A stretch of DNA of 40,794 bases from an uncultured Microbacteriaceae bacterium. Lineage in GTDB: Bacteria > Actinomycetota > Actinomycetes > Actinomycetales > Microbacteriaceae. Numbering within the stretch: position 1 is the stretch's first letter; each line of letters begins with the position of its first letter. Where the stretch lies: positions 1 to 40,794 of the forward strand of contig CAIWRM010000101.1 of NCBI GenBank assembly GCA_903915075.1, given 5' to 3'. Both the position numbers and the translations under genes were made by a program. This document shows positions 35,347 to 40,586 of the stretch, one piece after another. The notes beneath the pieces are model-generated. The model had not been told where the DNA came from, did no database searches, and saw only the letters and a program-made list of their open reading frames with translations.

Positions 35347-35616
35347 ATGCCCACCGCGCGACCGAGACACATGATTACCGAAACGGATGAGATTGCCGGG
35401 GCGATCGATGCCGCTGCTCTGCTGTGGCCCGAGGCCAAAAAGAACCGTGCCGAGTTACTGCGTCGGCTCATCGCCGAAGCCCACACATCTATAGATGCCC
35501 GCGTGAACGATCGTGTTGCCGCTCGGCGCAAGGCGATTCTCGAGGGTGCGGGCAAGCTCAGCGGCGTGTGGCCGGCAAACTGGCGCGAAGAGCTTCGGGA
35601 CGACTGGCCCGAATGA
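35347..35616 (+). CDS. vapB: VapB-like antitoxin
   Basis: 89 residues. The N-terminal RHMITETDEIAGAIDAAALLWPEAKKNRAELLRRLIAEAHTSI resembles the helical DNA-binding part of short actinobacterial antitoxins paired with PIN toxins. The C-terminal tail LSGVWPANWREELRDDWPE is acidic and aromatic, the kind of segment that wraps into the toxin groove. The TGA overlaps the toxin start by 4 nt. The family is inferred mainly from context. TACACT lies six nt before the ATG. Confidence 0.75.
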   Translation: MPTARPRHMITETDEIAGAIDAAALLWPEAKKNRAELLRRLIAEAHTSIDARVNDRVAARRKAILEGAGKLSGVWPANWREELRDDWPE

Positions 35617-35999
35617 TTGTTCTCGACTCCGGCGTTCTCATCGCCTACGCCAATCCGGATGATGCCCATCACCGTGGCGTGCTGGATTTGCTATCGCGTG
35701 CGTCTGACGAGTCATTCTCGGTGACGGCCCTGACGTTAGCCGAAGCGCTGATTCATCCGGTTCGGGCTGACATCGTGGGAGAAATGGTCAAGGCCATCGC
35801 GGCCCTCGGGCTCTATGTGGAAGACCTGCGGGAACAGGATGCCGTTGCACTGGCGCGGGTTCGAGCGGCAACGGGCCTGAAGATGCCCGATGCCCTGGTC
35901 GTGCACACCGCCGAGCGATTCGGCGGCTCGGTGGCAACCACCGATGCCCGGTTGGCTGCTGCTGCCGAAAGCCGAGGTCTCGTGGTTCACAAGTTTTAG
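35613..35999 (+). CDS. vapC: VapC-type PIN-domain ribonuclease toxin
   Basis: 128 residues, one PIN domain. The acidic active-site residues are visible in order: D5 in IVLDSGVLIAY, E in LTLAEALIHPV, D in GLKMPDALVVHTA and D in ATTDARLAAAA. Probably cleaves tRNA or rRNA; which is unknown. The start overlaps the antitoxin stop (ATGA); the longer frame reaching 35424 lies within vapB. It ends 50 nt before the converging nucleotidyltransferase gene. Confidence 0.88.
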   Translation: MIVLDSGVLIAYANPDDAHHRGVLDLLSRASDESFSVTALTLAEALIHPVRADIVGEMVKAIAALGLYVEDLREQDAVALARVRAATGLKMPDALVVHTAERFGGSVATTDARLAAAAESRGLVVHKF

Positions 36000-36049: not shown

Positions 36050-36595
36050 TTAGCCCAGGCTGCTCATGAATTGCAGGGAGACATTCTTCGCCCGCGACGA
36101 GAAGCGAGGATCTGATATTTTCCGAAGGCGTTGGCTCACACGTTCTGGTGACACCAGTCCGGCCTCCACAAGCGCGGAGACAAACTCACGGTCCTTGCTG
36201 TCATTACGTCCCATCTTGGCAGCGCAGAGGTCGTGAGCTTCAAGGCACAGGCCCATCACTTCTGGGTTCACTGTTGGGCGAACTTCGATCAGTCGCTCCT
36301 CCCAGCCGTTGGGCAGGAATGCGGTCCGAACACTCACCCCTTGGATGTAGAAACCGTGCTCGCGGTCGAAGTCAGACCATTCGCCAGCAAGCACGTCGAT
36401 GCGCGAGGCGAGAGACTCAGCCACGTCGTCGTGAAGAGGCGCCATATCGATTTCTTGCGAGGCGGTGGCTCGGGCCGGGAGTGCAGTTTCATCGAAGCTG
36501 CCAAGAATCGCCTGCGACCCAATAACGAGGATTCTCGGCTGCGCAATGATGTGTGTGGCCGTGACGATGGCCAACTCGAGTTCGGTGCGTTTCAC
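36050..36595 (-). CDS. Nucleotidyltransferase-fold protein, DUF6036-like (candidate toxin)
   Basis: 181 residues. The Pol-beta-type nucleotidyltransferase signature is IIAQPRILVIGSQAIL (Gly-Ser near residue 26) followed by SQEIDMAPL, the E-x-D metal-binding pair, near residue 48. The C-terminal part is helical with HDLCAAKMGRNDSKDREFVSALVEAGLVS, typical of DUF6036/AbiEii-like proteins. No other domain. The ATG overlaps the stop of the upstream XRE gene (ATGA). Such fused operons are usually toxin-antitoxin or abortive-infection modules; enzymatic target unknown. Confidence 0.72.
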   Translation of the reverse strand: MKRTELELAIVTATHIIAQPRILVIGSQAILGSFDETALPARATASQEIDMAPLHDDVAESLASRIDVLAGEWSDFDREHGFYIQGVSVRTAFLPNGWEERLIEVRPTVNPEVMGLCLEAHDLCAAKMGRNDSKDREFVSALVEAGLVSPERVSQRLRKISDPRFSSRAKNVSLQFMSSLG

Positions 36596-37131
36596 TCAGA
36601 TGCCCTGGCGATGGCGGCTAGGCGCTCGTCGTTCGAGAGAACACCCATGAATGGCGATGTTTGGCGCATGGAGATGGACCGTGAATCAGAGCCAAGCATT
36701 CGATCGATGAGGGCTCCCATTCGCTTACCGTTCGCCAGACGTTCCCACTCCGCGATGTCGGCGAGGGCGGACGTGCCTCGCACGCGTGTGCGAAGTTGTT
36801 CGAGATTAGCGTCGACCACCGACATAACGTCGCTCGATTTCCACACGAGTTTCGCAGCCACGGCGCGATGGAGTTCAAGCGTCACGCGATCTTCACGGCG
36901 CTCCAAGACCGCGTCGACCTTGGAGGGGAGTTCACTTTCCGGCGATGTCCCCATCGCGCTGAGCGCCCGGGCAATCGTTTGCGGTCGCGCCGTGCCGCGC
37001 CGTTCGGATGCCTCCCACTGAGTTATGGCGCCGGGCGTCACATTCGCAAGGCGGGCTAGCTCGCGCACACCAATGCCGCGTCGCTCGCGGGCGAGGCGGA
37101 TAACTGATTCAGTGACCTGCTCAGTGCTCAC
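36592..37131 (-). CDS. XRE-type HTH protein, probable antitoxin/autoregulator
   Basis: 179 residues. The HTH spans about 10-55 (VIRLARERRGIGVRELARLANVTPGAITQWEASERRGTARPQTIARALSAMG), an XRE domain with VTPGAITQWE as recognition helix. The C-terminal 120 residues are helical and unassigned, ending SNDERLAAIARASE. The start is put at the GTG with GGAGG eight nt upstream; a TTG at 37146 is in frame but overlaps that site. Overlaps the nucleotidyltransferase by 4 nt. A palindrome over the -10 region suggests it represses its own operon. Confidence 0.78.
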   Translation of the reverse strand: MSTEQVTESVIRLARERRGIGVRELARLANVTPGAITQWEASERRGTARPQTIARALSAMGTSPESELPSKVDAVLERREDRVTLELHRAVAAKLVWKSSDVMSVVDANLEQLRTRVRGTSALADIAEWERLANGKRMGALIDRMLGSDSRSISMRQTSPFMGVLSNDERLAAIARASE

Positions 37132-37151
37132 AACGACATCCTCCAACTGTT

Positions 37152-37391: not shown

Positions 37392-37430
37392 AATGCAAAA
37401 CGGACCCCACAAGGAGGCCCGTTTTGCATT
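37392..37430 (-). terminator. tRNA-Gly terminator
   Basis: AATGCAAAACGG (37392-37403) pairs perfectly with CCGTTTTGCATT (37419-37430) across a 15-nt centre. It begins two bases after the tRNA 3' end. On the minus strand the pairing gives CCGTTTTGCATT on the descending side, T-rich enough for intrinsic termination. Confidence 0.75.
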
Positions 37431-37432
37431 GG

Positions 37433-37503
37433 AGGGGATGACGGGAATCGAACCCGCGTAATCAGTTTGGAAGACTGAGGCTCTACCATTGAGCTACATC
37501 CCC
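37433..37503 (-). tRNA. tRNA-Gly (anticodon UCC)
   Basis: 71 nt on the minus strand, beginning GGGGATGTAGCTCAATGG and ending with GGGTTCGATTCCCGT, CATCCCC and a T discriminator; acceptor arms pair perfectly. The anticodon loop CTTCCAA gives TCC (reads GGA/GGG). CCA is not encoded. A TAGAAT (37520-37515) about 11 nt upstream may be its -10. Confidence 0.95.
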
Positions 37504-37643
37504 GGTGCACATCGATTCTAGATGATGCGGGCAGGTCGCACGCGACCATGTTGTTCGGCAACACAGTCGCCGAGCACCTTCAACTTTATCCGCACACGCA
37601 GTGATAGCGTTGTCAGCGTTTGAAATTGAATTAAGGGGACGAC

Positions 37644-38903
37644 GTGGCCAAGAATCCGCCGACGAATGACGCAAACAACGCGCACGAGTCAACCAAGGGA
37701 AACCAGTCCGGCTCGCTCACTCGACGCACGCTGATTGCGGGTGGTGTCGCGGCGGCCGGCGCACTCGTATTGGCCGCCTGCGCTCCCGTGGGCACCCCGA
37801 TTCTTCCCACGTCCACTGCGCGTGCGATTCGAAAGATTACGCCACCTCGCCTCGACACGGCATACCTCGGCAAAGAGGTGCTGTGCTACCGCCCCATGCG
37901 TCGCGGTGCGCCCAACATGAGCGTCGAAACGGTGGGTTCGCAAATCATCGCCCACAACTACGGGCACGGCGGTAGCGGCTGGACGCTCGCACCGGGCGCG
38001 GCGAAGTACGTAGTCGATCTCGTGGAAGACACCGAGCAGGGCAACATTGTCAGCAAGGGCGAGCCCATCACTGTTGTGGGCGCTGGAGTTATCGGTCTGT
38101 TCACGGCCTACGAGCTCGTGCAGCGTGGGTACAGTAACGTCACCGTGAAGGCCGAAGGGTTCGAGAATCTCACCTCGCACAACGCTGCTGGACTGCTTGC
38201 ACCCGTCTCAATGGATAACGCGCCCGAGTTTCAAGCAATCATCGACCAGATAGGTATCGATGCCTATCGGTTCTATGCGGCCGTGGCCAAGGGCGAACAG
38301 CCCGACTTCGCAGCGGGCGCCAAGATCGTTCCGTCTTACTTTCAAACACGAGAGGAATCGGGCCTCGAGCCATACGTGGGCGCGGTCATGGAGCCCGCTA
38401 AAGACGTTGACGTCGACTTCGGTAACGGCACCACGCGAAACATGGTTGTCTACGACGACGGCATCTTCATCGACACCGCCGTGATGATGGAAGAGTTGCG
38501 CGCGCATCTTGATTCGCGGGTCACGTTCGTCGAGGAGAAGATCACAAGCTTCGCCGACCTGCCCACCCAGCTGGTCTTTGATTGCGCCGGCTTGGGATCC
38601 GGGGCTCTCAACGACGATGCCGAAATGGTCTCTGTTCAGGGTCACCTCATCATGCTGAAAGACCAGGTGCCTGCCGACATGGAGTACATGATCCTCGTCT
38701 ACTTCGCGGAGGGAGTCACCGAAGCAAACCAAAAAGTCAAGCGTTCGTTTTACGTCATGCCCAAGCACCTTCCTGAAACAGGCGTCAACGACATTGGAGT
38801 GGTGGGCGGTACCTTCGTTGAGGGAGGAACGCCTGAGACACCAAACCTCTCCGAGTTCGCCACGCTGCTTCAGGGCGCCAAGGACTACTACGGCATCGCG
38901 TAG
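37644..38903 (+). CDS. Tat-exported lipoprotein FAD oxidoreductase, DAAO-like with permuted motif order
   Basis: 419 residues. The N-terminus has a twin-arginine motif SLTRRTLIAGG (24-34) and lipobox LAAC with Cys46, so it should be folded before export and lipid-anchored outside. FAD fold: VVGAGVIGLFTAYELVQRG (about 144-162) with HNAAGLLAPVS later. In ordinary D-amino-acid oxidases the substrate/FAD motifs RPxRxGxP and HNYGHGGxGxTL lie at the C-terminus; here CYRPMRRGAPN (81-91) and HNYGHGGSGWTL (104-115) come before the Rossmann motif, and the protein stops at GAKDYYGIA, where that segment would normally follow. This is a circular-permutation order. Probable amino-acid or related amine oxidase; substrate unknown. 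GTG start with GGGG upstream. Confidence 0.82.
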   Translation: MAKNPPTNDANNAHESTKGNQSGSLTRRTLIAGGVAAAGALVLAACAPVGTPILPTSTARAIRKITPPRLDTAYLGKEVLCYRPMRRGAPNMSVETVGSQIIAHNYGHGGSGWTLAPGAAKYVVDLVEDTEQGNIVSKGEPITVVGAGVIGLFTAYELVQRGYSNVTVKAEGFENLTSHNAAGLLAPVSMDNAPEFQAIIDQIGIDAYRFYAAVAKGEQPDFAAGAKIVPSYFQTREESGLEPYVGAVMEPAKDVDVDFGNGTTRNMVVYDDGIFIDTAVMMEELRAHLDSRVTFVEEKITSFADLPTQLVFDCAGLGSGALNDDAEMVSVQGHLIMLKDQVPADMEYMILVYFAEGVTEANQKVKRSFYVMPKHLPETGVNDIGVVGGTFVEGGTPETPNLSEFATLLQGAKDYYGIA

Positions 38904-39050: not shown

Positions 39051-39128
39051 CGGGGCGTAGCTCAGCTTGGCTAGAGCGCCCGCTTTGGGAGCGGGAGGTC
39101 GCAGGTTCGAATCCTGTCGCCCCGACCA
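39051..39128 (+). tRNA. tRNA-Pro (anticodon UGG), CCA encoded
   Basis: 78 nt including an encoded CCA at 39126-39128. Acceptor CGGGGCG/CGCCCCG pairs perfectly, anticodon stem CCCGC/GCGGG with loop TTTGGGA giving TGG, and a T-arm GCAGGTTCGAATCCTGT. The position just before the trigger factor gene is common in actinomycetes. Confidence 0.95.
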
Positions 39129-39209: not shown

Positions 39210-40586
39210 GTGAAGACCACGGTCGAAAAACTCAGCCCCACGCGCGCCAAGCTCACCATCACGGTGGGCCCCGACGAGCTCAAGCCCGCAATCGCGCACG
39301 CCTACGAGCACATCGCTGAGCAGGTCCAGATTCCTGGTTTCCGCAAGGGCAAGGTACCCGCACCGCTGATTGATCAGCGCGTGGGCCGCATGGCTGTTCT
39401 CGAGCACGCCGTGGGTGAGGGCCTTGAGGGCTACTACCGTCAGGCCGTTGTCGACGAGAAGGTGCGCCCGATGGGTCGCCCCGAAGCCGACGTCACCACG
39501 TGGCCCAACGAGAAGGACTTCACGGGCGACCTCGTGGTCACGGTGGAGGTGCCCGTTCGCCCCGAGATTAAGCTTCCCGATGTCTCCAAGCTCAAGGTCG
39601 AGGTGGAGCCCATTGCCATCACGCCCGACGAAATCATGGATGAGCTCGATCGCGTGCGCAGTCGCTTCGGTACCTTGGTCGCCGTGGATCGCCCCGCCAA
39701 GAAGGGTGACTTCGTTCAGCTCGACCTGACGGCATCTATCGGCGGCAACACGGTCGATACGGCCGAGTCCATCTCCTACGAGCTCGGCTCGGGTGAGCTT
39801 ATCGAAGGAATCGACGAGGCTCTCGACTCGCTCACCGCAGGGGAGTCCACCACGTTCGAGTCGGTGCTGCTCGGCGGCGACCACGAGGGTGAGACCGCTC
39901 AGATCGCTGTGAGCGTGAGCGCCGTCAAGGAGCGCGAGCTGCCCAAGGCTGACGACGAGTTTGCACAGCTGGCCAGCGAGTTCGACACCATCGCCGAGTT
40001 CCGCGAGAGCCTCAAGGGCGAAATCACGCGCCGCAAGGGATTCGATGTGGGGCGCGAGGCTCGTGCCAAGCTCATCGATGCGCTGATTGCCGCCACCGAC
40101 ATCCCCCTTCCCGACGGCATCGTTGACGACGAGGTGCACCGCCACCTCGAGGGCGAGGGTCGCCTCGAAGACGACGCACACCGCGCCGAGGTGATTGCGG
40201 AATCCACCAAGACCTTCAAGCAGCAGATTCTGCTCGACACGGTTGCCGAGGCCGAAGGCTTCGAGGTCAGCCAAGAGGAGCTTTCGGGCTACATTTTCCA
40301 GGGCGCTATGCAGTACGGCATGTCTCCCGAAGAGTTCATGAAGGTGCTCACCGAGAACAACCAAATCGGTTCGGTCGTGGCCGACGTTGCGCGCAACAAG
40401 GCGCTCACGATTTTGGTGGAGCGCGCCAACGTTGTCGACACCAAGGGCACAAAGATTGACCTGGCCGAACTGGCCGGCACCAAGAAGGCCGATGACGCGA
40501 ATGCTGAGGTAGGTTCTGAAGCCGACTCCGAGGTCGTCGCGAAGGCCGAGAAGAAGCCTGCCAAAAAGGCCAAGAAGTCCGAGTAG
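39210..40586 (+). CDS. tig: Trigger factor, ribosome-associated chaperone and peptidyl-prolyl isomerase
   Basis: 458 residues in the three-domain order. Ribosome-binding domain (about 1-115) with the signature [14 protein letters not shown] near 36-49, which docks onto ribosomal protein L23. FKBP-like PPIase domain (about 155-240: [22 protein letters not shown] ... [15 protein letters not shown]). Helical C-terminal chaperone arms (about 245-425). The tail is Lys/Ala/Glu-rich ([13 protein letters not shown]), as in many actinobacterial trigger factors. GTG start with AAGGAG upstream. Assists folding of nascent chains at the exit tunnel. Confidence 0.97.

Follow-up and report, generated by a model that had tools for sequence, protein, structure and literature searches.

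The open reading frame at positions 37644–38903 of the forward strand encodes what is quite probably a naturally circularly permuted member of the D-amino-acid oxidase (DAAO) branch, with the fold kept, exported through the Tat pathway as a lipidated amino-acid oxidiser and encoded by a gene that an ancestor of the genus acquired. The window, i.e. the whole stretch of DNA analysed (40,794 nucleotides), comes from an uncultured Microbacteriaceae bacterium. Judged from profile alignments, the last ~68 positions of the family, which carry the RPxR and HNYGHGG motifs and the next helix, are found at the front of the protein, where they are connected to the former start; the chain now ends just ahead of the point at which this block would normally follow.

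The predicted protein has 419 residues, starts with GTG, ends in DYYGIA (stop codon at 38901–38903) and is preceded by a Shine-Dalgarno-like AAGGGGA at 37633–37639, read directly; all features of the gene are on the forward strand. A Tat-like motif, TRRTLI (residues 26–31, positions 37719–37736), is followed by a lipobox, LAAC (residues 43–46, 37770–37781), both read directly from the sequence. The moved block spans residues 62–130 (37827–38033) and corresponds, by profile match, to positions 247–314 of normal DAAOs. It includes RPMR (residues 83–86, 37890–37901), in which R83 is aligned with the Arg of 'FRP' in D-aspartate oxidase 9vpf, and, in the translation, HNYGHGGSG (residues 104–112, 37953–37979). 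The main block, residues 141–412 (38064–38879), corresponds to profile positions 2–247. It contains the Rossmann FAD motif GAGVIG (residues 146–151, 38079–38096) and Y370 (38751–38753), which aligns with Tyr224 of human DAAO in a phmmer alignment to 6kbp. GxGxxG and HNYGHGG are thus both present but in the reverse of the normal DAAO order, which identifies the protein as a permuted variant rather than an ordinary DAAO.

The Pfam DAO profile matches the protein with an E-value of 1.6e-23 (84.3 bits against a cut-off of 27.9). On the genome, profile positions 291–353 are found at 37821–38021 (E 7.1e-6), ahead of the profile start, and positions 2–231 at 38067–38657 (E 7.5e-14); among the matches listed, the contig carries just those two DAO pieces. 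For a finer comparison we used a profile of 316 positions built from 31 normal-order DAAOs, leaving out L047, L053, L058 and L059, in which both motifs are not in one frame, and L057, which is the place of L018. Positions 247–314 of this profile fall on residues 62–130 (49.9 bits) and positions 2–247 on residues 141–412 (78.3 bits), so that the two pieces join at position 247. Rotation of the window protein yields a single match covering positions 2–314 of 316 with 135.6 bits. In a random-cut control, the best random cut also reached 135.6 bits (mean 87.8), but some random cuts land near the true one and the control is not a clean null; we therefore relied on tiling. Solved structures give the same picture by phmmer: residues 76–124 align with residues 310–358 of the 370-residue D-aspartate oxidase 9vpf, and residues 142–411 with residues 3–262 of human DAAO. 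The DAAO pieces, as delimited by these matches, are complementary, each is present once and their order is swapped. The preliminary description had proposed a circularly permuted motif order that reflects rearrangement rather than loss, and the profile tiling bears out both points. Simple loss of the C-terminal block can be ruled out, since the profile finds the block upstream.

The same pattern recurs beyond the window. In all 12 permuted proteins tested, the window's included, the profile end lies ahead of the profile start. After rotation, six of the 11 others fuse into one match, and five (L021, L024, L026, L027 and L028) remain as two pieces in normal order. Middle profile positions are unmatched in L026 (190–259) and L027 (196–255), and in L002 the block match (218–314) overlaps the main match (2–247). 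The end-before-start pattern is also present in the unrotated profile matches of L099, L100, L102, L103 and L126. Among 63 distinct sequences with both motifs in one frame, HxYGHGG is placed 33, 37 or 40 residues ahead of the Rossmann motif in 17, which are all the distinct permuted sequences we have, and 270–327 residues past it in the remaining 46, with none in between; the rows were classed by motif order itself, and the counts therefore describe two peaks, not a rate.

Orthologues were found in all five other same-genus genomes searched. Four of these are complete (the fifth is cut by a contig edge), share 82–93% identity and have the permuted order without exception, as the search for orthologues suggested in the preliminary description was meant to establish. 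All ten pairs among the five sequences have dN/dS values of 0.08–0.13. By these measures the permuted order is conserved and under purifying selection. The records of the close relatives name them as uncultured Microbacteriaceae, Aurantimicrobium sp. and Actinomycetota bins, and their habitat is presumably fresh water, given these record names and the habits of Aurantimicrobium. In another family of the same class, f121, the gene is present in four of 17 genomes (L100, L101, L102 and L126); identity is 67% both for L100 and for the portion of L102 that was aligned. All four f121 proteins share with the window protein the Tat motif (SRRGFL or TRRAFL), the lipobox (LAAC) and a 40-residue junction.

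Elsewhere the occurrence is patchy. A sample of 395 further genomes from the window's order did not yield the gene at E 1e-12, nor did 30 same-family genomes of other genera at 0.001. A search of the phylum with the genus alignment matched three other genomes of 295, each over 50–64 positions on one part. A mixed permuted alignment gave matches at 1e-6 in 93 of 396 genomes; of the matches listed, only the one at the window's place spans both parts in one piece. The search of the class matched 75 of 394 genomes at 1e-12, and six places, including that of the window, span both parts in one piece. Permuted proteins of 23–30% identity were recovered from Nonomuraea, rhizobia, Niveispirillum, Kozakia and phage-like contigs; these distant relatives are located on plasmid records, on phage-like contigs and in two more genomes of the class (L099, L103).

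The chance that the unusual order merely reflects an assembly error, a frameshift or a pseudogene in a single metagenome bin is practically negligible. The source bin (1.84 Mb in 266 contigs, 89.9% complete, 7.2% contamination) would allow such errors, but the order is identical in four complete orthologues from separate records and in another family, complete Nonomuraea, Bradyrhizobium and Rhizobium records also show it, and dN/dS is about 0.1. A normal-order C-terminal block behind a frameshift is absent, the four complete same-genus orthologues being permuted alike, and the conserved order rules out an artefact or frameshift. Thus, the same rearrangement in relatives from other bacteria argues for a real design and not an error, and its retention across the genus, a second family and distant relatives, together with the profile tiling, for rearrangement and not loss. 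The permuted order is, as far as these alignments tell, common to relatives in Actinomycetota and Alphaproteobacteria.

The distant relatives differ from the window protein mainly at their N-termini and in their gene neighbourhoods. Proteins of Nonomuraea, Bradyrhizobium, Rhizobium and Mesorhizobium (L021, L024, L025 and L022, respectively), as well as L099, have the permuted order of the window protein but, unlike it, contain neither a Tat motif nor a lipobox by pattern. L021, L024 and L025 are 25–28% identical to the window protein; the L022 gene is annotated as two pieces. A gene for a thiamine-pyrophosphate enzyme is next downstream in all five of these loci, and the pair of this gene with a permuted DAAO without a signal constitutes a conserved, apparently unnamed gene set. 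In L025, a gene for a berberine-bridge-type FAD oxidase stands ahead of the permuted gene. By contrast, Niveispirillum (L023), Kozakia (L026) and the phage-like contig L027 encode permuted proteins (23–29% identity to the window protein, with Kozakia at 23%) which all have a Tat-like motif; L023 and L027 also have a lipobox as in the window protein, whereas the Kozakia protein lacks one. On the Kozakia plasmid (L026, 1–8447) the permuted Tat DAAO is accompanied by genes for cytochrome c, a second DAO, a beta-lactamase-family hydrolase and a prolyl-oligopeptidase-type peptidase, and this gene run may be a set for the breakdown of peptides or D-amino acids. A beta-lactamase-family hydrolase gene (PF00144) also adjoins the permuted gene, in divergent orientation, in f121 (L102, 2983–4155, forward strand). 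Permuted DAAO genes are located behind a terminase large subunit gene in L027 (1–5211) and L028 (910–4011; L029 is a repeat of L028). In L027, ParA-like and portal genes lie downstream and the permuted copy appears broken near its end. The permuted genes in L027 and L028 look like phage cargo. PHROGs returned nothing (best 0.27), and no relative was found among the viral contigs searched with the window protein or among the phages searched with the L027 protein. All annotated permuted relatives carry the name 'FAD-dependent oxidoreductase'.

How the new order arose can be approached from the junction. In the 46 distinct normal proteins, the tail from the motif to the stop codon is at least 25 residues long (median 28), and in the normal frames L034, L037 and L040 the first possible start is ~10 residues ahead of the Rossmann motif. 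A junction of 33–40 residues is thus close to the length expected if the old tail and head were simply fused, which fits the usual route of tandem duplication followed by trimming. An extant tandem-duplication intermediate was ruled out among the 81 ORFs, duplicates included, as none has two HxYGHGG motifs.

Phylogenetic analyses bear on the number of origins. The first tree, with 12 permuted and 33 normal proteins, needed two order changes, whereas better sampled trees with 15 permuted and 46 normal rows need a single change, the permuted proteins being one side of a branch. Support for this branch is 98/99 on the main part alone, with the moved block left out, and 89/100 on the rotated protein including the block. 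These trees left out L047, L053, L058, L059 and L057 as well as L104 and L115, in which the motifs were not found; the permuted near copies L005, L029 and L101; and the split gene of L022. L007 and L070 were omitted by choice because of their long branches in the first tree, and L008 was retained, although its branch is long too. The branch leading to the lipoprotein group is very long, at 2.91 changes per column. Two separate origins of the permutation, one in the window's lipoprotein group and another in the group made up of Nonomuraea, rhizobia, Niveispirillum and Kozakia, seem distinctly unlikely. The first tree placed the window group with the normal-order L018, L035 and L054 (94/90), and a single origin cost 6.85 log units (p-AU 0.134); in L018 the block (YGHGGAGWTLAPGTAERVADLV) is much like that of the window; and with more rows the alternative grouping, at p-AU 0.299, is not rejected. 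Against this, the permuted proteins fall on one side of the better sampled trees, both rotated and on the main part, and the window protein has a Tat-like motif and lipobox in common with Niveispirillum and L027. A single origin of the permutation is, on these alignments, more likely than two. We consider it probable that one ancient permutation of the DAAO fold by plain end fusion, in which the ends of the FAD domain were joined, founded an undescribed flavoenzyme subfamily, and that this subfamily spread horizontally through Actinomycetota and Alphaproteobacteria (phage-like contigs, plasmids, the tRNA-flanked site) and split into cytosolic forms linked to thiamine-pyrophosphate enzymes and Tat-exported surface lipoproteins.

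The predicted structures are poor, and what they show with confidence is limited to parts of the FAD core. A first AlphaFold model from six sequences had a mean pLDDT of 43.0, and a second, from eight sequences, a mean pLDDT of 49.5 and a pTM of 0.53. In model 2, a strand (100–106), two helices (116–129 and 131–135), a strand (142–145), a helix (149–160) and a strand (166–170) are confident, as is the region near 278–313. At this mean pLDDT of 49.5, a confident strand-helix-strand-helix-strand thus runs from the block into the Rossmann motif, with the GHGG loop (108–115) below 50; most of the substrate half is likewise below 50 in the models. A Foldseek search with model 2 found nothing below an E-value of 0.001, the best match being dimethylglycine oxidase (6.9e-3). 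VIA placed residues 1–271 of pig DAAO on residues 81–360 of the model (protein residues 140–419, i.e. the main block) with a Z of 10.2 and an rmsd of 4.9 over 214 residues, low-confidence residues included; fructosamine oxidase is tied at 10.1, and the DAAO value is just 2–3 above the 7–8 that the tool calls common. The last strand and helix of the DAAO fold are part of its FAD domain. Joining the old ends would therefore give a regular beta-alpha-beta crossover: the old C-terminal strand and helix would lie beside the first strand of the FAD domain, the join would bring the ends of that domain into one piece, and the cut would be placed in the loop ahead of the RPxR strand.

Compared with DAAO and D-aspartate oxidase (PF01266; pig, human and Cryptococcus humicola 9vpf), the window protein retains the likeness over profile positions 2–314, the FAD motif, RPxR, HNYGHGG and equivalents of Arg283 and Tyr224. 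It differs in the reversed order of its two parts and in its Tat/lipoprotein N-terminus, and it is 22–25% identical to mammalian DAAO in the VIA alignments. The counterpart of R83 in human DAAO we take to be Arg283. In DAAO these Arg and Tyr residues serve in substrate binding. R83, P84 and R86 are invariant in alignment A4. Of the substrate-type residues, R83 and Y370 have DAAO counterparts, whereas the position of the second Tyr, Tyr228 of human DAAO, is occupied by K374 in the phmmer alignment to 6kbp. Y370 and K374 are invariant in alignments A2 and A7 (same-genus and family f121 orthologues), and a conserved insertion is present before Y370. Given this Lys and the insertion, the substrate preference of DAAO cannot be assumed. 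Together with the long branch, the same features would suit an exported flavoprotein of DAAO fold which acts on a substrate other than an amino acid (another amine) or has no catalytic role. We regard this as rather unlikely, since R83, P84, R86, GHGG, Y370 and the FAD motif are all retained and purifying selection is strong.

The locus itself points to a gain. The left neighbour of the gene is tRNA-Gly(tcc) (37430–37503, reverse strand) and the right neighbour is tRNA-Pro(tgg) (39051–39128, forward strand), 147 bp past the stop codon, followed by the syntenic anchor tig, which encodes trigger factor (39210–40586, forward strand). The two tRNA genes are 1547 bp apart, with the permuted ORF alone between them, and the gene lies between the same two tRNAs in the four complete same-genus loci. 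In eight of ten same-family genomes of other genera, the gap between tRNA-Gly and tRNA-Pro upstream of trigger factor is 80–276 bp; in L083 and L095, the remaining two, no tRNA-Gly turned up at this place and the empty site is therefore not readable. The short gap in related genera and the patchy occurrence argue for a gain by an ancestor of the genus, and the gene was probably acquired, to judge from this synteny. No tRNA genes were found in L100–L102. The relatives on plasmids and on phage-like contigs behind terminase genes suggest that such genes move. Further upstream in the window, an HTH gene (36592–37146, reverse strand) overlaps a gene for a DUF6036 nucleotidyltransferase-like protein (36050–36595, reverse strand) in a layout resembling a toxin-antitoxin or small defence pair, and a PIN-domain protein, possibly the toxin of a toxin-antitoxin pair, is encoded at 35424–35999 (forward strand).

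The N-terminus has the signature of a Tat lipoprotein, namely an S/T-R-R-x-L/F motif, a hydrophobic stretch and a lipobox, and it is kept in orthologues; the genome also encodes TatC (E 8.2e-53). The twin-arginine motif and lipobox pointed out in the preliminary description therefore hold up, and with the TatC gene they support export: the protein probably leaves the cell and stays anchored on its outside. Proteins pass through the Tat pathway already folded, which an FAD enzyme would require. The protein, with fold and active site presumably retained (R83 for the substrate carboxylate, Y370 and the GHGG loop), would fold with FAD in the cytoplasm, leave through the Tat pathway, be lipidated at C46 and work on the outer face of the membrane. 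Its substrates there may be D- or other alpha-amino acids, such as those released when wall material or peptides are turned over; it would convert them to the imino or keto acid, with O2 or a respiratory carrier as the electron acceptor. The gene would have been gained in the ancestor of the Microbacteriaceae genus, between tRNA-Gly and tRNA-Pro. No operon partner that hints at a substrate is present at the window locus. The expected location of the protein at the membrane surface would suit a dehydrogenase that feeds electrons into the quinone pool or to a cytochrome, instead of an oxidase that forms H2O2, and the gene of the permuted Kozakia relative, unlike that of the window, adjoins a cytochrome c gene (PF13442, PF00034), 5 bp downstream. 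The immediate neighbours of the window gene, however, are tRNA genes, trigger factor and the HTH gene, with no cytochrome or quinone protein, and the Kozakia protein is only distantly related at its 23% identity; we rate a dehydrogenase a little short of an even chance.

Among well-studied enzymes, circular permutation in nature is uncommon. DAAO serves as a model flavoenzyme, and many structures of it have been solved. No permuted DAAO was found in the literature on permutation in DAAO, the DAO superfamily or flavoproteins, within a coverage largely limited to open articles, subscription papers and preprints falling mostly outside it. Permuted sheets are described for monoamine oxidase and electron transfer flavoprotein, with DAAO not among them in the part of the paper covered (PMC2916828); the portion of PMC13359353 covered holds nothing on permuted DAAO, and that of PMC4432964 gives a count of circular permutations in general. 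The permuted DAAO is a genuine enzyme design that is apparently undescribed. A conserved permutant means that the DAAO fold accepts new termini, and it provides a natural test of how the FAD domain is assembled. It also marks a subfamily that is hidden by ordinary annotation as 'FAD-dependent oxidoreductase'. The lipoprotein branch, if true, would place the oxidation of amines or amino acids on the outside of small free-living bacteria.
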